Source: Brevundimonas vesicularis (GTDB taxonomy: Bacteria > Pseudomonadota > Alphaproteobacteria > Caulobacterales > Caulobacteraceae). From it: 64,000 nt of DNA. The stretch lies in the NCBI RefSeq assembly GCF_027105095.1, contig NZ_CP114278.1:2702501-2766500 (forward strand), in the 5' to 3' direction. Shown in pieces: positions 19,551 to 62,994 of this stretch; position 1 is the stretch's first letter, and every line of letters starts with the position of its first letter. The notes beneath the pieces were generated by a model, which ran no database searches, was not told the DNA's origin, and worked only from the letters and a program-made list of their open reading frames with translations. A program made the position numbers and the translations under genes.

Positions 19551-20420
19551 ATGACCCTCCCCCACGCCCTGCCCCACCTCGACGCCGTCGCCGGCGATTA
19601 CGACATCCTGCTCTGCGACGTCTGGGGCGTGATCCATAATGGCCGCGAAAGCTGGCCTGGGCCTTGCGAGGCGCTGACCCGGTTCAACCGCGAGGGCGGC
19701 CACGTCGTGCTGATCTCCAACTCGCCCCGCCCGGCCTCGGACGTGATCGCTCAGCTGGACGGGCTGGGCGTGCCGCGCGAGGCATGGAAGGCCTTCGTCA
19801 CCTCCGGCGACGCGACCCGCGCCGAACTGGCCAAGCGCGCGCCGGGTCCGGCCTGGATCGTCGGCCCCGAACGTGACGCGCCGCTGTACGCGGGTCTTGG
19901 CCTCGAGCGCGCCGCGTCGCCTGAGGACGCCGCGTTCATCTCCGTCACCGGCCCGGTGGACGACACGGTCGAGACGCCCGAAGACTACCGTGAGCGGTTC
20001 GCCGTCGGTGCCGCACGCGACATCGAACTGATCTGCGCCAATCCCGATCGCGTCGTGCAGCGCGGCGACCAGCTGATCTACTGCGGCGGATCGCTGGCCG
20101 ACCTCTATGAATCGCAGGGCGGCCGGGTCGTGATGGCGGGCAAGCCCTTTGCCCCGATCTACGATCTGGCGATCAAGGAGGCGGAAGGCTTGCTGGGCCG
20201 CTCCGTCGATCGCTCGCGCGTCCTGTGCATCGGCGACGGCGTCGTCACCGACGTGATGGGCGCAAACGTGCAAGGGCTCGACTGCCTGTTCATCGCCCAG
20301 GGCATCCACGGCGACCAAGCCAAGGGCGAAGACGGCGCGCTTGACCCTGCCCGCGCCGCAGCCCTGCTGAAGGCGGAAACGACCTATGCGCGATACGCCG
20401 CGCTCGAACTGAACTGGTAA
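19551..20420 (+). CDS. HAD-superfamily hydrolase (TIGR01459-like)
   Basis: A 289-residue class IIA HAD protein. Motif I is DVWGVIHNG (residues 20-28), where the second Asp of DxD is replaced by the DxWG form used in this subfamily. Motif II Ser lies in LISNSPRP, and motifs III/IV are in GKPFAPIYDLA and CIGDGVVTD. A phosphatase for a small sugar or nucleotide phosphate is expected; the substrate is unknown. The ATG at 19551 is the first start that gives a normal N-terminus. The frame upstream runs through the repeat and is not coding. Confidence 0.85.
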   Translation: MTLPHALPHLDAVAGDYDILLCDVWGVIHNGRESWPGPCEALTRFNREGGHVVLISNSPRPASDVIAQLDGLGVPREAWKAFVTSGDATRAELAKRAPGPAWIVGPERDAPLYAGLGLERAASPEDAAFISVTGPVDDTVETPEDYRERFAVGAARDIELICANPDRVVQRGDQLIYCGGSLADLYESQGGRVVMAGKPFAPIYDLAIKEAEGLLGRSVDRSRVLCIGDGVVTDVMGANVQGLDCLFIAQGIHGDQAKGEDGALDPARAAALLKAETTYARYAALELNW

Positions 20421-52240: not shown

Positions 52241-53740
52241 GTGAAACAGCTCAAACACATCCTGATCGTCGGCGGCGGCACGGCCGGCTGGATGACGGCG
52301 GCCCTTCTGTCGAAACTGTTCGGCGACCTTTACCGGATCACCCTGATCGAGTCCGAGGCCATCGGCATCGTCGGGGTCGGCGAAGCCACCATCCCGGCGA
52401 TCAAGAAGTACAACGAGCTCCTGGGGCTGGACGAAACCGACTTCATGCGCCGCACCCAGGGCAGCTTCAAACTGGGCATCCAGTTCGTCGATTGGGGCCG
52501 ATTGGGCGAAAGCTACATCCACGGCTTCGGCGTCATCGGCCAGAATCTGGCGTTCCTCAGGCTGCATCACTACTGGCTGAAGATGCAGGCCGCGGGTCAG
52601 ACCTCGAACCTGGCGGACTATTCGATAAACACCGTCGCCGCGCCCGAAAACCGCTTCATGCGGGCGGATCCGAAAATGCCGCAGTCGCCGCTGGGCCATA
52701 TCGCGCACGCCTTCCACTTCGACGCCGCCCTTTACGCCCGCTACCTTCGCGGTCTCGCCGAAGCCTCCGGCGTCGCGCGGCGCGAGGGCAAGGTCGCGGA
52801 CGTCACGCTGCGACCCGACGACGGCTGGGTCGAGTCCGTCATGATGGACGACGGCGAGGTCATCGCCGCCGACCTGTTCATCGACTGCTCCGGCTTCCGG
52901 GGCCTGATCATCGAACACGCTTTGAAGACCGGCTATGAGGACTGGAGCCATTGGCTGCCGTGCGACCGCGCCATGGCCGTGCCCTGCGCCCGCGGCGAAC
53001 CTTTCACGCCCTACACCCGCGCGACCGCCCGCACGGCGGGCTGGCAATGGCGCATCCCGTTGCAGCACCGCACGGGCAACGGCCACGTCTACTCCAGCCA
53101 GTACATCGACGACGACGAGGCCGAGCGGATGCTGCTGTCCAATCTGGACGGCGAGCAACTGGCCGAACCGAACCGGCTGCGGTTCACTACCGGCAAGCGC
53201 AAGAAAATCTGGAACAAGAACTGCGTCGCCGTCGGCCTGGCGTCCGGCTTCCTCGAACCGCTGGAGTCCACCTCGATCCACCTGATCCAGTCGGCCGTGA
53301 TCCGTCTGGTGCGACTTCTGCCTGACGCCGGGTTCGATCAGGCGACCATCGCCGAGTTCAATCGCCAGACCGACTTCGAATACGAGCGCATCCGCGACTT
53401 TGTCATCCTGCATTACAAGGCGACCACGCGGGACGACACGCCCTTCTGGCGCTATGTCCGAGACATGGATATCCCGGCTACGCTTCAACGCAAGATCGAC
53501 CTGTGGATGGCCAACGGCCGCATCTTCCGCGAGGATGAGGAGTTGTTCGCCGAGGAAAGCTGGATCCAGGTCTTCTTGGGCCAGGGCTTTGTGCCGCGCG
53601 GGTACGATCCGCTGGCCGATCTCAAGTCCCACGAGGAAGTGGCGCGCTATCTTCACGACGTTCGCAACGTGATCCGCAAATGCGCAGACCTGATGCCGGC
53701 CCACTCGGACTACATCGCGAGGGTCTGCCCCGCCGCCTAG
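52241..53740 (+). CDS. Flavin-dependent tryptophan-halogenase-family protein
   Basis: A 499-residue FAD protein of the tryptophan 7-halogenase family. It has the FAD site VGGGTAGWM (residues 10-18), GEATIPAIKK with Lys56 aligned to the catalytic Lys of PrnA, and the WxWxIP halogenase motif (Trp268, Trp270, Pro273). Homologues next to TonB receptors and glycosidases are common in Caulobacterales and their substrates are unknown. The start is GTG at 52241, 18 bases after the GH3 stop, so the genes are co-transcribed. Confidence 0.85.
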   Translation: MKQLKHILIVGGGTAGWMTAALLSKLFGDLYRITLIESEAIGIVGVGEATIPAIKKYNELLGLDETDFMRRTQGSFKLGIQFVDWGRLGESYIHGFGVIGQNLAFLRLHHYWLKMQAAGQTSNLADYSINTVAAPENRFMRADPKMPQSPLGHIAHAFHFDAALYARYLRGLAEASGVARREGKVADVTLRPDDGWVESVMMDDGEVIAADLFIDCSGFRGLIIEHALKTGYEDWSHWLPCDRAMAVPCARGEPFTPYTRATARTAGWQWRIPLQHRTGNGHVYSSQYIDDDEAERMLLSNLDGEQLAEPNRLRFTTGKRKKIWNKNCVAVGLASGFLEPLESTSIHLIQSAVIRLVRLLPDAGFDQATIAEFNRQTDFEYERIRDFVILHYKATTRDDTPFWRYVRDMDIPATLQRKIDLWMANGRIFREDEELFAEESWIQVFLGQGFVPRGYDPLADLKSHEEVARYLHDVRNVIRKCADLMPAHSDYIARVCPAA

Positions 53741-53948: not shown

Positions 53949-55715
53949 ATGTTAGTGAGCGTCCCAAGCCAAGCCTTCGCCTTCACAGCGGCGCCGCCCA
54001 TGCAGGCGGCCAGCGTCATCGATCATCTGGAAACGGCGCGGGCTTTGATCGAGAGGCGGTTTTCCGACGCCGGAGAGCGGCTGGCGGGATCGCTGGACAT
54101 GGTGGGGCGACTGATCGAGTCCCTGGATCGCTTGGAGGTCACACTCGACGCCAAGTCGGTTTCGAACACGACTCAGGAGCTTCTGTCCACGGCCGACGGC
54201 CTGAATGCTCTACCCCAGGCGCAACATGAGCGGGTCGCCTACTTCGCCAACATCAAGACCGCCGGTGAGCAGCTCGGGTCCAACATCGAGTCGATGCGGA
54301 CCACGCTTCGCTATCTTCGGGCCTTCGCACTCAATGTGAAGATCACGGCCGGCTCGACGATCCGCGCCTCGGATGAGTTCGCCGGTTTTGCCGAACGGAT
54401 GTGCAGCCAGCTGGATCTCGGCGTGGGCCAGTTGGACGAGCTGGCCGATCAACTGAAAGATCTGTCGGCGCGCCTGCAGCAGGCGCTTGAATTCGAACAG
54501 AGCCTCGGCGGCAAATACAACGCCCTGATCCCCGTCGTGCCCGACCGACTGGCGATCGACGCCCGCGACATTCAGCAACAGCATACCCGTATCGCCAATG
54601 TGGCCCGAGCGACTGCGGCGATCGCCCGGAGTATCCAGACGAAGGTCAGCAAGGCTCTGATGGCCTTGCAAATCGGCGACATCACGCGTCAGCGCGTGGA
54701 ACACGTTCAACTGGGTTTGCGCGTGACCAGCCGACTTGTGGCCGAGACCGACTTGCCCGAAGAGGCGCGCGACCGCGCCGAGCGGCGGCTGCTGCATATG
54801 CTGGCCGCCCAGATGTCGGACATCGCCGCTGATTTCGAAGCCGAGGCCGGCAAGGTCACCCAGAGCCTGAGCGACATGGCGGCCGACACCGCCCAGATCA
54901 TCGCCGTGAACGATCTGTCCGAGCAGAACGGCAAGGGCGGCTTGCGAGAGTTGGAGGAGAGCCTGGGTCATGCCGGCCTTCTGGTCGGCGACGTGACGGC
55001 CGCCATGGTCAACGCCGACAAGATCAGCCGCGAGACCGTCTCTGCGGTCGAGGCATTGTCGCATCGCGTCGGCGCCATTCAGGGGGTCAAGCGCGACATC
55101 CAGCAGATGGCGATCAACAGCAGCCTGCGCTCCAATCGTCTGGGCGATATCGGCAAGCCTTTGAGCGTTATCGCCATCGAATTGAGCAGTCACGCCGGGC
55201 TGTTGGAGGAAGAGGCCGACCTGACGCTCAATTCGCTGAACGCCCTTGCCGGCGTGGCGGATCATATGTCTGCCGGGGGCGCCCAGGATGAGCGCATCGA
55301 CGCCAATCGCCTCGTCGGGGTTCGCGCCCGACTGCGCCAGGCGGCGGATGTGGTCGACAACGATCTGGGCGGCCTCAGCGATCAGGGCGTGGCGACGGCC
55401 CAGTCGCTGACCGTGGCGGCCGAACAACTGGGTCTAAAGGCGGACATGGGCGACGCCCTGCACGACGCCGCAGCAGCCCTGGCCGAAGCGGCGGGACCGG
55501 AGGTCGATGACCTGTCCGGGATCGAAGCCGCCCTTGATGACGCCATGAGTGAGATCGGGCGCTGCTACACGATGGCGCGCGAACGGCTGATACACGCGCA
55601 ATACGCCGTGGCGCGAGAGGACGCCCACGAAGCTGAAGGTTCCGAGACTGCGGCGGCAGCCGTCGAAACCGCCCCTGCCGAAGAGGAAGACGAGTTCGCC
55701 GACCTGCTGTTCTGA
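53949..55715 (+). CDS. Soluble coiled-coil protein with MCP-like tip and CheZ-like DxxxQ motif
   Basis: A 588-residue, mainly helical protein with no signal or membrane segment. Three parts stand out. First, LQIGDITRQRVEHV near residues 240-253 has Asp244-x3-Gln248, the spacing of the CheZ catalytic DxxxQ. Second, residues 386-416 (MAINSSLRSNRLGD and PLSVIAIELSSHA) look like a degenerate MCP hairpin tip. Third, an acidic tail ends in DEFADLLF, much like the CheY-binding tail of CheZ. It converges on the che operon, 56 bases from cheB. A role as a CheY-P phosphatase or adaptor is inference. Confidence 0.75.
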   Translation: MLVSVPSQAFAFTAAPPMQAASVIDHLETARALIERRFSDAGERLAGSLDMVGRLIESLDRLEVTLDAKSVSNTTQELLSTADGLNALPQAQHERVAYFANIKTAGEQLGSNIESMRTTLRYLRAFALNVKITAGSTIRASDEFAGFAERMCSQLDLGVGQLDELADQLKDLSARLQQALEFEQSLGGKYNALIPVVPDRLAIDARDIQQQHTRIANVARATAAIARSIQTKVSKALMALQIGDITRQRVEHVQLGLRVTSRLVAETDLPEEARDRAERRLLHMLAAQMSDIAADFEAEAGKVTQSLSDMAADTAQIIAVNDLSEQNGKGGLRELEESLGHAGLLVGDVTAAMVNADKISRETVSAVEALSHRVGAIQGVKRDIQQMAINSSLRSNRLGDIGKPLSVIAIELSSHAGLLEEEADLTLNSLNALAGVADHMSAGGAQDERIDANRLVGVRARLRQAADVVDNDLGGLSDQGVATAQSLTVAAEQLGLKADMGDALHDAAAALAEAAGPEVDDLSGIEAALDDAMSEIGRCYTMARERLIHAQYAVAREDAHEAEGSETAAAAVETAPAEEEDEFADLLF

Positions 55716-55771: not shown

Positions 55772-56848
55772 TCAGCGCGAGCGGTCGACCGCCATGATCT
55801 CGCGGGCGATATGCTCCAGCCCCATGATCTTCTGCGCCGCCTCGCGGGCGATGGCTTCCTTTGGCATGCCGAAAACGATGGAGCTGGCTTCGTCCTGAGC
55901 CACGGTCACGCCGCCGGCGTCCTTAAGTTCGAGCAGACCGCGCGCCCCGTCGTCGCCCATGCCGGTCATGATGACCCCCATGGCGTTGCGGCCGGCCGCG
56001 CGCGCGGCGGAGCGGAACAGGACATCCACCGAGGGGCGGTGACGCGAGACAGGAGGGCCGTCCTTGATCGCCACCTGATAGCGGGCGCCCTGACGTTCCA
56101 GCAGCATGTGCTTGTCGCCCGGCGCGATCAGCACATGGCCGCGCAGGACCGGATCGCCGTGGCTCGCTTCCTTGACGGCCACCTCGCACAGACTGTTCAG
56201 GCGCTTGGCGAAGGCGGCGGTGAAGCCGGCCGGCATGTGTTGAACGATGATGATGCCGGGTGCATTGGCCGGCAGGGCCTGCAGGACTTCACGCAGGGCT
56301 TCGGTGCCGCCGGTGGAGGCGCCCAGGCAGGCGACCATTTCGGTAGTGCGGGCCATGGCCGCCCCGCTGGGCGGCGGCAGCATGGCGTCGGCCGTCAGCT
56401 TCGTACCGGGATCCAGGGTCCGGGCGGTCGGGCGTCGGGCGCCGACGCGGGCGCGGGCGGCGGCCTTGACCACATCGCGGATGCGGTCTCCGCTCTCGGC
56501 CAGATGGTCCGCCGCCCCGATGCGCGGCTTCAGAATGATATCGACCGCGCCGGCCTCCAGCGCCTGCATCAGGGTTTCCGACCCGGCCTCGGTCAGGGAC
56601 GAACACATGACGACCGGGATCGGCCGTTGGGACATGAGTTTGCGCAGAAAGGTGATGCCGTCCATGCGCGGCATTTCGACGTCCAGGGTGATGACGTCAG
56701 GCACGTCTTCGGCGATGCGCCGGGCGGCGACGAAGGGATCGGAGGCCACGCCCATGACCTCGATGCCGGGGTCCGCCGACAGCACGTCCACCAAGGTCTG
56801 GCGAACGCTGGCGGAATCGTCGATCACCAAAACGCGAACCTTTGGCAT
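55772..56848 (-). CDS. cheB: Chemotaxis protein-glutamate methylesterase CheB
   Basis: A 358-residue protein with a receiver domain (Asp56 in [12 protein letters not shown]) and a C-terminal methylesterase. The catalytic triad is visible: Ser178 in GASTGG, His204 in QHMP and Asp300 in MTGMGDDG. It removes methyl groups from the chemoreceptors when phosphorylated by CheA. It lies 4 bases after cheR and is the last gene of the operon. Confidence 0.95.
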
Positions 56849-56852
56849 GACG

Positions 56853-57707
56853 TCAGGTCTTCCGGAAAATGGTGTTGGCGACTGTGACCAGCGGCAGATC
56901 GATGCCCGTGATGCTTTCGGAATGGCCGATGAACAGATAGCCGCCGGGCCTCAGACGGGCGCATAGGCGGTTCAGCACCTTGGACTGGGTCGGCTTGTCG
57001 AAATAGATCATGACGTTGCGGCACATGATGATGTCGAAGGGGTCGCCCACGGCGTACGTGTCGTCCATCAGGTTCAGACGCGCCAGGGACAGCTTGGCCC
57101 GTAGCGACGGATGAATGCGGCTCTCGCGCCGCCGCGCGTCGCGCGCCTTCATCACCCAACGCCGCATGTCGGCAGGCACGGGGTTGAGCATCTCGTCGGG
57201 ATAAATCCCGCGCAGCGCCGTCTCCAACACCTCCGTCGACAGGTCGGTGCCCAGGATCTGAAAATCGGGCCCACCCGCCTGTTCGGCGAAAGTCTGCATG
57301 ACCATGGCCATGGTGTAGGGTTCGGCGCCCGTCGAACAGGCCGCGCTCCAGGCCCGGATCCGGCGTTGTCCCGCCGCCCTGAAGTCAGGCAGCACATGGC
57401 TGGCCATGTAGTCGAAATGTCGCGGCTCGCGGAAGAAGTCGGTCTTGTTCGTCGTCACCGCGTCGATCAGAAACACGGACTCGGTCTCCAGCCCGTCGTC
57501 CTTGAACAGATAGTCGCAATAGCCGTCGAACGTCTCGTGACCCGTGACGCGAAGTCGACGACGCAACCGCCCCTCAAGCATGGTGCGCTTCGACGAGGGC
57601 ATCTTGATGCCGCTGTAATCGTAGATGTAGCGCGCCAGCCGTTCGAAGTTTCGGGCGCTGATCTGATCGGGTGCGGGGGCGGACCGTTCTAGCGCCGCTT
57701 GGGACAA
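56853..57707 (-). CDS. cheR: Chemotaxis protein methyltransferase CheR
   Basis: A 284-residue SAM-dependent methyltransferase with the N-terminal helical domain (residues 18-80) and a catalytic domain carrying [20 protein letters not shown] and CRNVMIYFD. It methylates receptor glutamates. No C-terminal TPR is present. The receptor in this operon has no NWETF-type tether, so CheR should bind it directly. Confidence 0.95.
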
Positions 57708-57741: not shown

Positions 57742-58254
57742 TCAGGCGGCTTGGTCGACGGCGGCCATGTCGGCCAGGGTTGCGGCTTCGCCGGTCGTGG
57801 ACAGCAGGCGGGGCAGATTGATCAGGACGACGAAACCATCATCCCGCCGCACAACGCCGGAGATGTAGTCCGATCGCCACTTGATCCCGAAATCAGGCGC
57901 GGGCTCGATCTGGTCGGCGGCGAAGGCGGTGACCTCAAACACGCGGTCGGCGACCAGACCCAGGCTCAGCATTCGGTCTTCCAGCGCAATGTCCAGCACC
58001 AGGATGCGGGTGTTCAACGTCGGCTCGACCGGGGCCATTCCCAGGCGGATCCGAAGATCCGCCGTGGGAACGCCCTGACCGCGGACATCCGTCAGACCCA
58101 GCAGATAGGCGGGGCTGTTGGGGATCCGCGAGGGGGTCTGATAGGTCAGGATTTCCCTGACCAGACCGACCGGCGTGGCGAACACCTCTGCGCCGAGGCC
58201 GAAAGTGACATACTGCCCTTCGGCTGCGGCTCGTTTTTCGCCAGGCGCGGACAT
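57742..58254 (-). CDS. cheW: Chemotaxis coupling protein CheW (copy 1)
   Basis: A 170-residue CheW domain protein. YVTFGLGAEVFATPV opens the fold, GLTDVRGQGVPTADLRIRLG is the second subdomain, and the C-terminal helix follows FVVLINLPRLLS. It links the receptor tip to CheA. The start overlaps the mcp stop by 4 bases (ATGA), so its dosage is coupled to the receptor. Confidence 0.92.
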   Translation of the reverse strand: MSAPGEKRAAAEGQYVTFGLGAEVFATPVGLVREILTYQTPSRIPNSPAYLLGLTDVRGQGVPTADLRIRLGMAPVEPTLNTRILVLDIALEDRMLSLGLVADRVFEVTAFAADQIEPAPDFGIKWRSDYISGVVRRDDGFVVLINLPRLLSTTGEAATLADMAAVDQAA

Positions 58255-60065
58255 CAGGCGCTCTCCCGGAAGTCCATGTCCTCGGCATCGGCGCCGCCGC
58301 TGGTCAGGTCAAGAGCGAAGCCTTTCACCCGCGCCTGCTGGGCGTGGACCGGAGACTTGGCAGGGCTCGACTTGGCGACGGGGCGGCCGGCGGGTCTGGC
58401 GGACGCTTTGAAGGTCGAGGCGCGGGCGGGGGCGCGGGCGGCAGGCCGGCCGCCGGCGGCGTCCGTGCGGAAGAAGGCGATCGACGTCTGAAGCTCTTCG
58501 GCCTGGGCCGCCAATTCCTCGGAGGTCGCCGACATCTGCTCGGACGCGCCGGCGTTCTGTTGGGTCACCTTGTCCAGTTGCTGGATGGCCTCGTTGATCT
58601 GATTGGCGCCCACGTCCTGTTCACGGCAGGCTGCGGAGATTTCCGAGACCAGTTCGGCGGTCTTGCGGATGTCTGGCACCAGGCGTTGCAGCATGTCGCC
58701 GGCTTCCTGGGCCGCCTTGACCGTGTCGCCCGAGACCGAGCTGATTTCGGCGGCGGCGGTCTGGCTGCGCTCGGCCAGTTTGCGGACTTCGGACGCCACC
58801 ACCGCAAAGCCCTTGCCGTGTTCGCCGGCGCGGGCCGCCTCGACCGCCGCATTCAGCGCCAGCAGGTCGGTCTGGCGGGCGATCTCCTGCACGATGCCGA
58901 TCTTTTCGGCGATGGTGCGCATGGCGTCCACCGCGCGGGTCACGGCCTCGCCGCTCAGTTCGGCGTCCTTGGCCGACTGACGCGAGATCTTCTCGGTCTG
59001 GGCTGCATTGTCGGCATTCTGTTTGATGTTGGCGGCCATCTCCTCCATCGAGGCGGAGGCCTGTTCAGCGGCGGCGGCCTGTTCGGTCGCGCCCTGGCTC
59101 ATCTGCTCCGAGGTGGCAGACAGTTCCTGGCTGCCCGAGGAGACGTTGTCGGCGGCCGACAGGGCGTCGGAGACGACGCCGCGCAGACGCTCCACCATCG
59201 ACTGCAGCGACAGGCCCAGGGTGTCCTTGTCCGACAAAGGCTTGGGCTGGACCGTCAGATCACCTTGAGCGATCTCGTCGGCCATGGCGGCCGTCGCCTT
59301 CAGATTGTCGGTCATCCGGTTCACCGTATCGACCAGATCCTTGATCTCGTCATTGGTCGTGACCTTGATGTCCTGATCCAGGTCGCCGATGGCGACGGCC
59401 TCGATGGCCGTCGAGACCTTGCGAAGGCCCAGGGTGACGGTGCGGGAAATCCAAAGGGCGGCGATCACGCCGATGACCAGACCGGCGACGACAAGGGCGA
59501 TGAACAGGGCGCGGGACTCGGCGAAGACCTTGTCGCCCTCGACGCTGGCGGCCTTTCCGCCGTCGACGTTGAGATTGACCAGCTTCAGCAGATCGGCCGA
59601 CATGTCGTCATAGAGCGGCTTGCTGGACAGCATGGTCTGGGCGGCGGCCTCGTTCTGGTTGGCGCGCGAGAGGCTCAGCATCCGCTCGCCGTCCCTCAGA
59701 TAATTGTCGAACTTGCCGGCGAACTGATTGTAGAGCGCGCGCTCCTCGTTCGAGGAGATCAGGGCCTCATAGCTTGTCCGTTCGTTTTTGATCGTATCGA
59801 GCGTGGCGGCGATGTCTTTCTCGACGGCGGCCATGCGCGCCGGATCGGTCGAGGTGATGTGGGTGTACTGCTGGGCCCGCAGATCCGAGGTCGCCGTGTT
59901 GATGCTGTGGATGGCGTCGATGCTCGGCATCCAGTTTTCAGTGATCACGGTCGACTGGTCGTTGACCGCGCTCATCTTCATGACGCCGACCCCCCCCAGA
60001 ATCATGGAGATCGCTAGGACGGCGGCGAAGGCCCCGGCTAGTTTTGCTTTAATCGTTAAGCGCAT
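58254..60065 (-). CDS. Methyl-accepting chemotaxis protein (4HB sensor, HAMP)
   Basis: A 603-residue transmembrane chemoreceptor with TM1 at about residues 10-30, a periplasmic four-helix-bundle sensor (about 31-186), TM2 at 187-207, HAMP to about 262 and a signalling domain with the hairpin tip [20 protein letters not shown] near residue 405. The tail is rich in Ala, Arg and Pro with no CheR-tether pentapeptide. The ligand is unknown. Methylation helices carry several EE/QE pairs. It is followed immediately by cheW. Confidence 0.93.
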
Positions 60066-60152: not shown

Positions 60153-60665
60153 CTAGTGGCGGGTCGCGGACGCGATTGAATGACGCGGCTCCCGCTGCTG
60201 ATTGAAGAGGGTCTGGAGAGCTGGAACGACGATGAACTCGCCGTCTCGCTTGACCAGACATTGGACGAACTCAGGCCGCCAGCGCATGCCGACGCTTGGC
60301 GGCGCCTCCGCGTCGGCCCGCGCCAGGGTCGTGACCTCGTGAACCTTGTCGGTACGCAGCCCGACCAGGGTCGGCTCACCGTCCAGATCGATCTCGATCA
60401 CGACGATGCGGCTATCGATGGTGGGCTCGCCGCGCTCCATGGCGAAGGCGACCCGCAGGTCCGACAGAGGAATGACCTTGCCGCGGAAGTTAATGACCGC
60501 CCCGACGAAGGCGCTGGCTCCCGGAACCGCCGTCTCCGGCGCCAGATCGATGATCTCCTGCACCGCCACGGCTTCAAGGGCGAACATTTCCCCGTTCAGT
60601 TCGAAGGTGAGAACCTCGATCTGCTCGGCTCCGGTCCAGCCTGGCGTACCGGCCACGCCGCTCAT
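60153..60665 (-). CDS. cheW: Chemotaxis coupling protein CheW (copy 2)
   Basis: A 170-residue CheW protein with QIEVLTFELNGEMFALEAVAV at the start and AVINFRGKVIPLSDLR in the second subdomain. It is only distantly similar to the first CheW of this operon. The start overlaps the cheA stop by 4 bases (ATGA). Two CheW paralogues could couple different receptors to CheA. Confidence 0.92.
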   Translation of the reverse strand: MSGVAGTPGWTGAEQIEVLTFELNGEMFALEAVAVQEIIDLAPETAVPGASAFVGAVINFRGKVIPLSDLRVAFAMERGEPTIDSRIVVIEIDLDGEPTLVGLRTDKVHEVTTLARADAEAPPSVGMRWRPEFVQCLVKRDGEFIVVPALQTLFNQQREPRHSIASATRH

Positions 60666-62674
60666 ACCGCTTCGCGCATCTGCGCCTCCTGCTGCTGGCC
60701 CTTGGCGACCAGGTGACCGACGTCCAGGATCAGCGCGACGGCGCCGTCACCCAGGATCGTGGCGCCCGAGAAGGTCGGCAGGCCGGAATGAAGCTTGGAC
60801 ATCGACTTAATCACCGTCTGGTGGTCGCCGATGATTTGATCGACGACCAGGCCGATGCGCTCGGCGCCGGTCGAGACCACGACCACCTTCTGGTGCAGTT
60901 CGGGCGGCGTGCCGGTGTCGAACATCTCGCGCAGACGCAGGAACGGCACCAGGCTGTTGCGCAGCGAGATGAAGCTGCGGCCGCGCGAGCGCAGATCCTC
61001 GTCCAGCGACAGCTCCAGACACTCCTCGACCGCGTCCAGCGGGATGACGTAGCGGCCATGGCCGACCCGCACCAACAGGCCGTCGATGATGGCCAGGGTC
61101 AGCGGGATGCGCAGCGACACCTCCGACCCCTCTCCGGGGCGGCTGGCGATGTCGATGGAGCCGCGCAGGCCCTCGATGGTGCGCTTCACCACGTCCATAC
61201 CGACGCCGCGGCCCGACAGGTTGGTGACGGCCGCCGCCGTCGAGAAGCCGGGATGGAAGATCATCTGCAGCAGGTCATGATCGCTGATCGCCGCGCCGGG
61301 CTCGATCAACCCCTGGCTCTCAGCCTTGGCGCGGACGCGGTCGCGGTCGATGCCCCGGCCGTCGTCGCGGATGGTGATGACCACCTCGCCGCCCGACTGA
61401 TGGGCCGACAGACGGATGCGCCCCGTGGCGGGCTTGCCTGCGGCGGTCCGGTCCTCGGCCATCTCCAGTCCATGGTCGGCGGCGTTGCGGATCAGGTGGA
61501 CCAAGGGGTCGGCCAGACGTTCGATGACCGTCTTATCGATCTCGGTGCTCTCGCCGTCGGTCGACAGCTCAATGGCCTTGCCGGTTTCGCGCGCCAGATC
61601 GTGAACCAGACGGCGGAACCGACCGAACAGGGTCGAGACCGGCACCATCCGCAGCACCATCATCGTATCGCGCAGTTCGCCCGACAGGCGTTCGATCTCC
61701 TCGGAGACCGCGCGCAGAGCCATATCGGTTCCGGCGTTGGAAAGCTGGCTCAGTCGCGACTGGGCGATCACGAGCTCCCCGACCCGGTCCATCAGTTCAT
61801 CGAGACGATCGGCGGGAACGCGAACGCTTTCCGTCACCTTGGTGGATTTTGCGGCGCCGGCGTCAACGGGGTCGGCGCCGGATGCCACCGGGACCTTGGC
61901 GGCTTCGACCGGCTCTATCTGCGGGGCTGCCGTTTTCTCAGCGACCGAAGCCGGCGCGTCCGGGTGCGCATTTTCAACGGCGTCGCACAGTTCGGCGTCC
62001 ACGGCTTCGATGCTCAAGGTCATCTCGTCCATGACGAAGATGAAGACGTCCTCGATCGCCGCCCGCCCCTGATCCGTCGTCAGGGTGACCGTCCAGCCGA
62101 GGTAGAGGTCAGTCGGCTCCATCCGGCCCAGAGCCGGAACACGCGACGCATCGACGACGACATGAGCGTCACCCAAATCCCGCAGCTCATTCAGCAGAGC
62201 CAAAGGGTTGGAGCCGTTGCGAAAGGCGTCGGCAGGAAGCTCGAACTTCACTCGCCAGGTCGTCGCCTTAGGAGGCGGCGCCTCAGCGGGCGCCCCGGCG
62301 TCGTCGGCGTCGCGCACCGCACGCTCCAGATCAGCCAGCAGGGCATCGCCCGCTGCCCCGTGCGCGCCCGAGGGGTCCTCCAGCAGACGACGCATATGAT
62401 CGCGGGCGGCGAGAACCGCCGAGACCAGATCCTTGGTCGCCGCCACCTCACCCTTGCGGACGCGGTCGAAGGCGGTTTCGCAATGGTGGGTGAAGCCGGC
62501 CAGGGCGTCGAAGCCGAACATGGCCCCCGATCCCTTCAGCGTGTGCAGCCCCCGAAACACCGCATCCACCAGATCCCGATCTTCAGGCCGGTCCAGCAGA
62601 TCCAGCAGGCCCTGTTCGATCAGTTCGAGGTTCTCGCGCGCCTCAACCTGAAAGATGGCGATGGCTTCGTTCAT
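60662..62674 (-). CDS. cheA: Chemotaxis histidine kinase CheA
   Basis: A 670-residue kinase. The P1 HPt domain has the phosphoacceptor His44 in FRGLHTLKGSGAM. A long linker region without a clear P2 domain follows. The dimerisation helix begins at VRVPADRLDELMDRVGE, then comes the HATPase (LIRNAADHGLE, DDGRGID, GRGVGMDVV), and a CheW-like C-terminal domain (PLDAVEECLEL) ends the protein. The ATG at 62674 is the real start; an upstream open frame in the same phase is not coding. The ATG overlaps the cheY stop by 4 bases. Confidence 0.95.
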   Translation of the reverse strand: MNEAIAIFQVEARENLELIEQGLLDLLDRPEDRDLVDAVFRGLHTLKGSGAMFGFDALAGFTHHCETAFDRVRKGEVAATKDLVSAVLAARDHMRRLLEDPSGAHGAAGDALLADLERAVRDADDAGAPAEAPPPKATTWRVKFELPADAFRNGSNPLALLNELRDLGDAHVVVDASRVPALGRMEPTDLYLGWTVTLTTDQGRAAIEDVFIFVMDEMTLSIEAVDAELCDAVENAHPDAPASVAEKTAAPQIEPVEAAKVPVASGADPVDAGAAKSTKVTESVRVPADRLDELMDRVGELVIAQSRLSQLSNAGTDMALRAVSEEIERLSGELRDTMMVLRMVPVSTLFGRFRRLVHDLARETGKAIELSTDGESTEIDKTVIERLADPLVHLIRNAADHGLEMAEDRTAAGKPATGRIRLSAHQSGGEVVITIRDDGRGIDRDRVRAKAESQGLIEPGAAISDHDLLQMIFHPGFSTAAAVTNLSGRGVGMDVVKRTIEGLRGSIDIASRPGEGSEVSLRIPLTLAIIDGLLVRVGHGRYVIPLDAVEECLELSLDEDLRSRGRSFISLRNSLVPFLRLREMFDTGTPPELHQKVVVVSTGAERIGLVVDQIIGDHQTVIKSMSKLHSGLPTFSGATILGDGAVALILDVGHLVAKGQQQEAQMREAV

Positions 62675-62994
62675 CGCCCCAGCACCTTCTTGGCGATCCG
62701 CACCAGTTGGTCGGGATCGAAGGGTTTGGTCAGCCAGCCCGTGGCGCCCGCCGCCTTGGCCCGCGCCTTCATGCCCTCGTCGGACTCTGTGGTCAGGAAC
62801 ACGATCGGCACACCCATCTGCTCGGGCATACGGCGCATCTCCTCGATCATGGTTAGGCCGTCCATGACTGGCATGTTCAGATCGGTGATGATCAGGTCGA
62901 AGGCGCTGGCCTTGGCCTTGGCGATGCCCTCCGCGCCGTCGGCGGCCTCGGCCACCGAATAGCCCGCGCCGGTCAGGGCGATCTTCAGCGCCAT
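62671..62994 (-). CDS. cheY: Chemotaxis response regulator CheY, N-terminally truncated
   Basis: A 107-residue receiver remnant. The phosphoacceptor Asp in LIITDLNMPVMDG, the Thr in VFLTTES and the Lys in LTKPFD are present. The N-terminus is missing: homologues of about 121 residues begin with a VVDDS acidic pocket. Here only the codons for D-S-I-R-M remain before an in-frame TAG at 63010-63012. The first methionine (62994) is the internal one of SIRM, so without the acidic pair the product would not bind Mg2+ or be phosphorylated. The break coincides with the switch to phage-like sequence at about 63003. Confidence 0.88.
   Translation of the reverse strand: MALKIALTGAGYSVAEAADGAEGIAKAKASAFDLIITDLNMPVMDGLTMIEEMRRMPEQMGVPIVFLTTESDEGMKARAKAAGATGWLTKPFDPDQLVRIAKKVLGR

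Follow-up and report, generated by a model that had tools for sequence, protein, structure and literature searches.

Which protein ends the chemotaxis signal in a bacterium that lacks the classical phosphatase of CheY? In CheZ, an aspartate and a glutamine act on phosphorylated CheY (CheY-P) while the C-terminal tail holds CheY, and where CheZ, CheC and CheX are all missing, CheY-P removal is usually explained by phosphate sinks. The question is raised by a gene of Brevundimonas vesicularis, convergent with cheB, cheR, cheW, mcp, cheW, cheA and cheY in a window of 64,000 nucleotides (the whole stretch of DNA analysed; contig NZ_CP114278.1). The initial annotation took classical CheZ to be largely missing from alphaproteobacteria, a generalization that fails, since 144 of 385 alphaproteobacterial genomes pass the PF04344 (CheZ) cut-off. 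In the genome of the window, PF04344 has no match at E up to 0.001, and Caulobacter crescentus is described as also without CheZ (PMC10579534). The features of the locus are as follows.

53949..55715, + strand: gene for a 588-aa two-hairpin chemoreceptor-like protein (open reading frame)
54000..54746, + strand: predicted hairpin 1, residues 18-266 (AF2 helices, Foldseek, hhalign to the motif-bearing receptor class)
54318..54401, + strand: putative decayed tip 1, residues 124-151 (N129-D244 distance, structural superposition)
54666..54704, + strand: CheZ-like motif LQIGDITRQRVEH, residues 240-252, with D244 and Q248 (conservation, register with the CheZ D/Q)
54759..55604, + strand: predicted hairpin 2, residues 271-552 (AF2 helices with breaks, hhalign)
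55098..55196, + strand: charge-altered tip 2, residues 384-416 (alignments)
55428..55466, + strand: putative decayed second motif copy LGLKADMGDALHD, residues 494-506 (hhalign to the LQFQDxxxQ columns of the class)
55566..55595, + strand: YTMARERLIH, the YTMxxERxxH motif, residues 540-549 (conservation)
55689..55712, + strand: C-terminal tail DEFADLLF, residues 581-588 (conserved ending, after a disordered linker)
55772..56848, - strand: cheB, the convergent neighbour (Pfam CheB_methylest, Response_reg)
56853..57707, - strand: cheR (Pfam CheR)
57742..58254, - strand: cheW (Pfam CheW)
58254..60065, - strand: membrane chemoreceptor gene, mcp (Pfam 4HB_MCP_1, HAMP, MCPsignal)
60153..60665, - strand: second cheW (Pfam CheW)
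60665..62674, - strand: cheA (Pfam Hpt, H-kinase_dim, HATPase_c, CheW)
62671..62994, - strand: cheY, here without its first strand (Pfam Response_reg from profile position 13)

The gene for the 588-aa protein is present in a single copy in its own genome. Strong matches to the protein occur in six of 61 genomes (its own included), with two further weak ones (E about 5e-5). Relatives were found at nine named-genome loci, at two more reached through the receptor class described below, and in 14 plasmid records (Shinella, Rhizobium, Agrobacterium, Sphingomonas, Novosphingobium and Methylosinus), the closest named relative found being that of Brevundimonas aurantiaca (84%). Conservation was read from an alignment, A2, of the window protein and 13 relatives with 20-85% identity to it, i.e. 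14 of the 18 sequences then known (L004, L006, L007 and L010 lie outside it); with L056 and L057, found later, the full set comprises 20 sequences, 19 of them intact. L057, from genome G401, has two in-frame TGA codons and a histidine for G243, and looks broken. The protein was first described as devoid of a membrane segment, in agreement with its best 19-residue Kyte-Doolittle mean of 1.11 (1.64-1.69 in four of the 13 A2 relatives). Searches of Pfam and NCBIfam gave nothing significant with the window protein, Pfam shows no sensor domain, and a PDB sequence search likewise gave nothing significant, the only hit, to the chemoreceptor structure 3g6b, being weak (E 0.19, residues 307-414).

Profile comparisons and models portray the protein as two chemoreceptor hairpins in tandem, and this architecture is well supported. 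Hairpin 1 aligns by hhalign with a class of motif-bearing receptors (E 2e-15 over 191 columns, through the D-x3-Q motif), and hairpin 2 with the same class (E 3e-18, through YTMxxERxxH) and with 19 chemoreceptors (E 4.9e-9, probability 96%). Compared directly, the two hairpins match weakly (E 0.003) and out of tip register, so that their tandem origin rests on both halves matching one class profile. AF2 predicts hairpin 1 as helices 18-136 and 141-266, with breaks. Modelled alone, residues 24-270 reach a pLDDT of 80, and their 12 best Foldseek matches are all chemoreceptor entries; by VIA-align, residues 65-166 of the hairpin-1 model superpose on residues 340-441 of an E. coli receptor with an rmsd of 1.3. 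Confidence in the full-length model is low (pLDDT 69, pTM 0.44), its best structural matches by Z being unrelated helical bundles, e.g. pore-forming proteins. CheZ is not among the structural matches listed for the full-length or hairpin-1 model, which carries no weight.

Residues 386-416 had been taken for a tip of the methyl-accepting chemoreceptor (MCP) type with altered charges. This assignment stands, with the hhalign match of hairpin 2 to chemoreceptors and with R or K in 18 of 19 members at the position of Tsr E385. The initial proposal of a CheZ-like part fused to one degenerate tip survives in half: the degenerate tip is there, while the single-tip layout gives way to two tandem hairpins, the first of which also derives from a chemoreceptor tip, at N129. 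That residue occupies the place of Tsr N381. Family HMMs, proposed as a check on both assignments, returned neither PF04344 nor PF00015 (MCPsignal) for the window protein at E up to 10; PF00015 matches eight of the 14 A2 members at E up to 1 (best 8.4e-9).

The CheZ-type spacing noticed at D244-x3-Q248 proved to be a conserved feature. D-x3-Q occurs three times in the window protein (at 207, 244 and 322) against an average of 2.4 in composition shuffles, so its presence is at chance level; the conservation of D244/Q248 is not. This pair is the sole invariant one of the three in A2 (n=14), within an invariant block formed by Q241, G243, D244, R247, Q248, R249, E251 and H252, and both residues are kept in all 20 family sequences, the broken one included. 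The stretch is predicted to be helical in both models (full-length, and residues 24-270 alone). Other invariant residues in A2 are Y540, T541, M542, E545, R546 and H549, plus the C-terminus; YTMxxERxxH is present in all 19 intact members and also in receptors L130-L132 and L160 of the class described below. The C-terminus, whose DEFADLLF had been likened to the CheY-binding tail of CheZ, reads LF, FF or LFA in 19 of 19 intact members, with two to five acidic residues among the last nine. D585 is invariant in A2 only through gaps, D being fourth from the end in 14 of 19 members (A in L010, Q in L056), and it is the general character of the tail that is conserved, not each of its residues. AF2 places a helix at 578-587 with pLDDT <50, after a disordered linker. 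Loss of D244/Q248 or of the tail type, looked for across relatives, was not seen.

How close is this to CheZ? DXXXQ is named as the phosphatase motif of CheZ, and its C-terminal region as CheY-binding (PMC7750401). CheZ proteins, including the Azorhizobium caulinodans type, share with the window protein a D-x3-Q on a helix, the local sequence DITxQRI and an acidic-hydrophobic tail; the disordered linker before the tail in the window model is a further likeness. The local sequence GDITRQR(V/I)EHV resembles FQDITGQRIxKVV of 17 alphaproteobacterial CheZ proteins, and the window protein combines IGDITRQRVEHV with the tail EDEFADLLF, compared with CheZ tails such as QDDIDDIL and QEEIDALL. The differences are also plain, in that the window protein has 588 aa against 176-377 aa for the open frames of the CheZ proteins in alignment A3, has two long receptor hairpins and an added YTMxxERxxH, and reads ALQIG where the same source describes an AXXFQ motif beside the CheZ site (PMC7750401).

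By hhalign, the whole family aligns with CheZ (E 4.7e-4, probability 33%), with D opposite D and Q opposite Q, and hairpin 1 alone with a score of 38 (probability 51%, E 1.5e-4); permuting 14 CheZ motif columns lowers this score to 23 on average, with a maximum of 26.6 in 50 permutations. The motif-bearing class scores higher (47, probability 83%, E 9e-6; permuted maximum 33), and one class member, P0003, has a weak PF04344 match (E 0.13) over the motif-bearing stretch. Ordinary receptors without the motif score 39 (E 5e-4), no worse than the 38 of hairpin 1, so that the CheZ likeness lies in the motif alone. Scoring by a CheZ motif matrix does not separate the family cleanly from all other ORFs, since a few unrelated ones reach its level. 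Either convergence on a receptor-type bundle or common descent with CheZ may underlie the likeness. In at least five of the sampled genomes (G000, G103, G111, G418 and G401, the last with stops inside), a match covers most of the family model, in a search that scored up to three candidates per genome with A2, so that absences of the family are not firm. CheZ is present in four of these five, one of the four having the broken family copy; the family is thus no simple substitute for CheZ, and a replacement role was dropped.

The same module is found on single-hairpin receptors. A motif scan of loci gave L058, a 373-aa receptor (PF00015 match at 2.6e-28) that combines a canonical tip with LQFQDRIKQRLEHV, with YTMKEEREAH and with a QDDNIDLF tail. 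Within the window's taxonomic class, 37 of 385 genomes contain a DNA pattern for LQFQDxxxQ; of 30 loci read, eight have a long frame that includes the motif and codes for a receptor-like protein (the other 22 being short frames or other proteins), and seven of the eight have an acidic tail ending in LF, the exception being L132. Across the phylum, a QFQDRxxQ pattern was present in 27 of 299 genomes, and 14 of 30 loci encode receptors with a tip, all 14 ending in LF or FF. With one protein common to both sets, the receptor class comprises 21 loci, 20 single-hairpin and one (L114) tandem. The tip asparagine precedes the motif aspartate by 115 residues in 19 of the 20 single-hairpin receptors and by 116 in one. 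N129 and D244 of the window protein are likewise 115 residues apart, as are the equivalent positions in nine of 14 A2 rows (window included), the distance being 111 in the other five. The motif at this fixed distance ties the tandem family to the D-x3-Q receptor class.

Both searches selected on the motif, not on the tail. Among 79 closed ORFs with a canonical-type tip, D-x3-Q lies at +115 in 20, of which 19 have an LF or FF ending, against three of the 59 without it (Fisher 3e-14, a value not to be taken at face value because the receptor proteins are related); two of the three have the motif elsewhere, at +116 (L134) or after the first hairpin (L114). An HMM of the 20 class receptors matches all 14 A2 members, in each with a first stretch through the motif and a second over hairpin 2 (E 1.4e-5 for the window protein, database size set at 20,000), and none of 14 shuffled A2 sequences, 14 reversed A2 sequences or 19 reversed receptors. 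Of 19 ordinary receptors it also matches 18, with higher scores than for the window protein and with best stretches that stop before the motif region; what this HMM shows is therefore receptor descent. In hairpin 2 of the window protein, the hhalign columns place a second motif copy, reading LGLKADMGD, in which D and Q are lost. The class receptors beside cheY-cheA share with the window family D-x3-Q at +115 and mostly the LF/FF end; they differ in their canonical-type tips and in a hydrophobic stretch above 1.6 in 14 of 20, whereas the window protein is soluble, tandem and tip-decayed. VC1394 may be such a receptor, beside cheY-cheA and with the module, a guess from gene order. The parts of the window protein are known ones and their arrangement is unexpected, in that a tandem of receptor-derived hairpins carries a site and a tail like those of CheZ. 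No description of a D-x3-Q on a chemoreceptor was found in a search of part of the open-access literature.

Several members of the class deserve mention on their own. L114 (L114:685-2799) is a 705-aa protein with two tandem hairpins, near-canonical tips, the motif after the first hairpin, a decayed copy after the second and the tail EDDIELF; the tandem-hairpin design hence exists elsewhere. L126, L127 and L134 are D-x3-Q receptors without a hydrophobic stretch above 1.3, and L127 has a second EDDIELF stretch near its N-terminus. L141 has a small ORF between cheY and cheA, STAS-domain-like by eye. Searched against plasmids, the C-terminal module of L058 gave one record, itself a family member, and that of L131 none.

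Genomic context links both groups to chemosensory clusters. Che genes stand beside the family gene in all 15 loci read, most stretches ending before the whole cluster; cheB is adjacent in 12 of the 15, and in L018 and L019 cheY-cheA lie no more than 3 kb away. The six of 61 genomes with a strong match to the 588-aa protein are exactly those that have a CheA at least 85% identical, an overlap expected by chance about once in 5.6e7 (calculated by hand) if genomes were independent, which they are not. In the class, the next gene is cheY, followed by cheA, in 15 of 21 loci (all 12 outside the window's taxonomic class, from nine genomes, plus L130-L132). L114, L126, L127 and L134 adjoin cheB-like genes, and the short flanks of L106 and L123 contain no che gene. 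The cheY of the window itself starts past the first receiver strand and the conserved acidic pair, both kept in five of five relatives (L163-L167), and so looks damaged or shortened. With 61 receiver-domain matches in the genome, the 588-aa protein may act on another receiver, or this strain may be losing the system. Upstream of the gene lies a tryptophan-halogenase family gene (52241-53740, + strand; PF04820, E 3.9e-204), itself preceded by genes that look by eye like those of a TonB receptor and a beta-glucosidase.

It is tempting to propose that the protein is a CheZ-like phosphatase for the CheY of its cluster, docked by its tail, a reading to which a probability of roughly 0.58 is given. 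A soluble, single-chain relative of chemoreceptors would then switch off signalling by the chemosensory cluster to which it belongs. CheY would be bound by the C-terminal tail; D244 and Q248, which lie on the return helix in hairpin 1, would place a water molecule on the aspartyl phosphate like the D and Q of CheZ. The receptor-like tip of hairpin 2 may tether the protein to the array of receptors, CheW and CheA, in which case CheY-P would be removed at the site of its production. The evidence for a CheZ-like role on the neighbouring CheY, as suggested in the initial annotation, is circumstantial and consists of the D/Q pair, the tail, the che linkage and the occurrence of the module on cheY-adjacent receptors. 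R247, E251, H252 and the YTM motif, conserved like D and Q, have no evident counterpart in CheZ. A precedent for D-x3-Q proteins other than CheZ in alphaproteobacteria is CheT of Sinorhizobium meliloti (Agbekudzi 2024, as described in the review PMC12654446), which carries D-x3-Q and is reported to speed dephosphorylation of one CheY. In this account, CheT is without significant homology in sequence to known chemotaxis proteins, is predicted to fold like CheZ and forms a complex with CheR (PMC12654446). It resembles the window protein, by description only, as an alphaproteobacterial chemotaxis protein with D-x3-Q, and differs in that the part of the review available mentions no receptor hairpins (PMC12654446).

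A broader and more tentative reading, for which the odds fall somewhat short of even, is that Pseudomonadota have a class of receptors that carry a CheZ-like phosphatase site of their own and a tail for docking CheY, of which the window protein would be a soluble tandem offshoot. Within the hairpin, the site would be on the return helix, close to the adaptation region and well away from the tip. One receptor could thus control CheA and also remove CheY-P, with a phosphatase set by its conformation, and the window protein would have given up the canonical kinase-control tips and kept the off-switch.

Three other explanations compete with a phosphatase. The strongest of them, though unlikely, is an adaptor or sink for CheY without catalysis, in which the tail anchors CheY or CheY-P to the array, the D-x3-Q block serves as a surface for binding or packing and the protein concentrates or buffers CheY. 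Binding by the tail alone is possible and needs no catalysis, many residues other than D and Q are just as invariant, and the tip of hairpin 2 is receptor-like; the exact CheZ spacing of D and Q, in the tandem family as well as in the single-hairpin class, nevertheless exceeds what docking needs.

Less likely again is an array scaffold in the manner of DosM (VC1403) of Vibrio cholerae, a receptor with two signalling domains (PMC7534058), with two tips that link two baseplates or cap the receptor lattice and a phosphatase activity that is absent or minor. DosM and the window protein are alike, on description only, in having two signalling hairpins per chain, and the accessible description of DosM mentions no phosphatase motif (PMC7534058). 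Two receptor hairpins per chain and this precedent favour the scaffold, as does the plasmid locus of Agrobacterium leguminum, in which the relative and cheB are separated by a ParA-family gene (L020:8749-9450) that may position the array. ParA-type proteins position arrays. Against the scaffold, tip 1 is without its asparagine in four of 14 A2 rows and without four residues in five of 14 (the rows with the 111-residue distance), the short turn at 267-270 in the AF2 model would fold the two hairpins side by side (at low confidence), and the conserved motif is left unexplained.

Very improbable is a docking site for CheR, CheB or CheD, in adaptation, formed by the motif and the YTMxxERxxH region: the adjacency of cheB in most family loci (plus the one with a ParA-family gene between) and of cheB-like genes in four of 21 class loci, and the alignment of hairpin 1 with Tsr, which puts the motif near the second methylation helix, speak for it, but the next gene in most class loci is cheY, not cheB or cheR, and the family tail is unlike the NWETF pentapeptide.

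If the phosphatase reading is true, a phosphatase site on a receptor scaffold would bring signal termination inside the array, where it could be controlled by ligand. It would also suggest a function for the poorly understood receptors encoded beside cheY-cheA.
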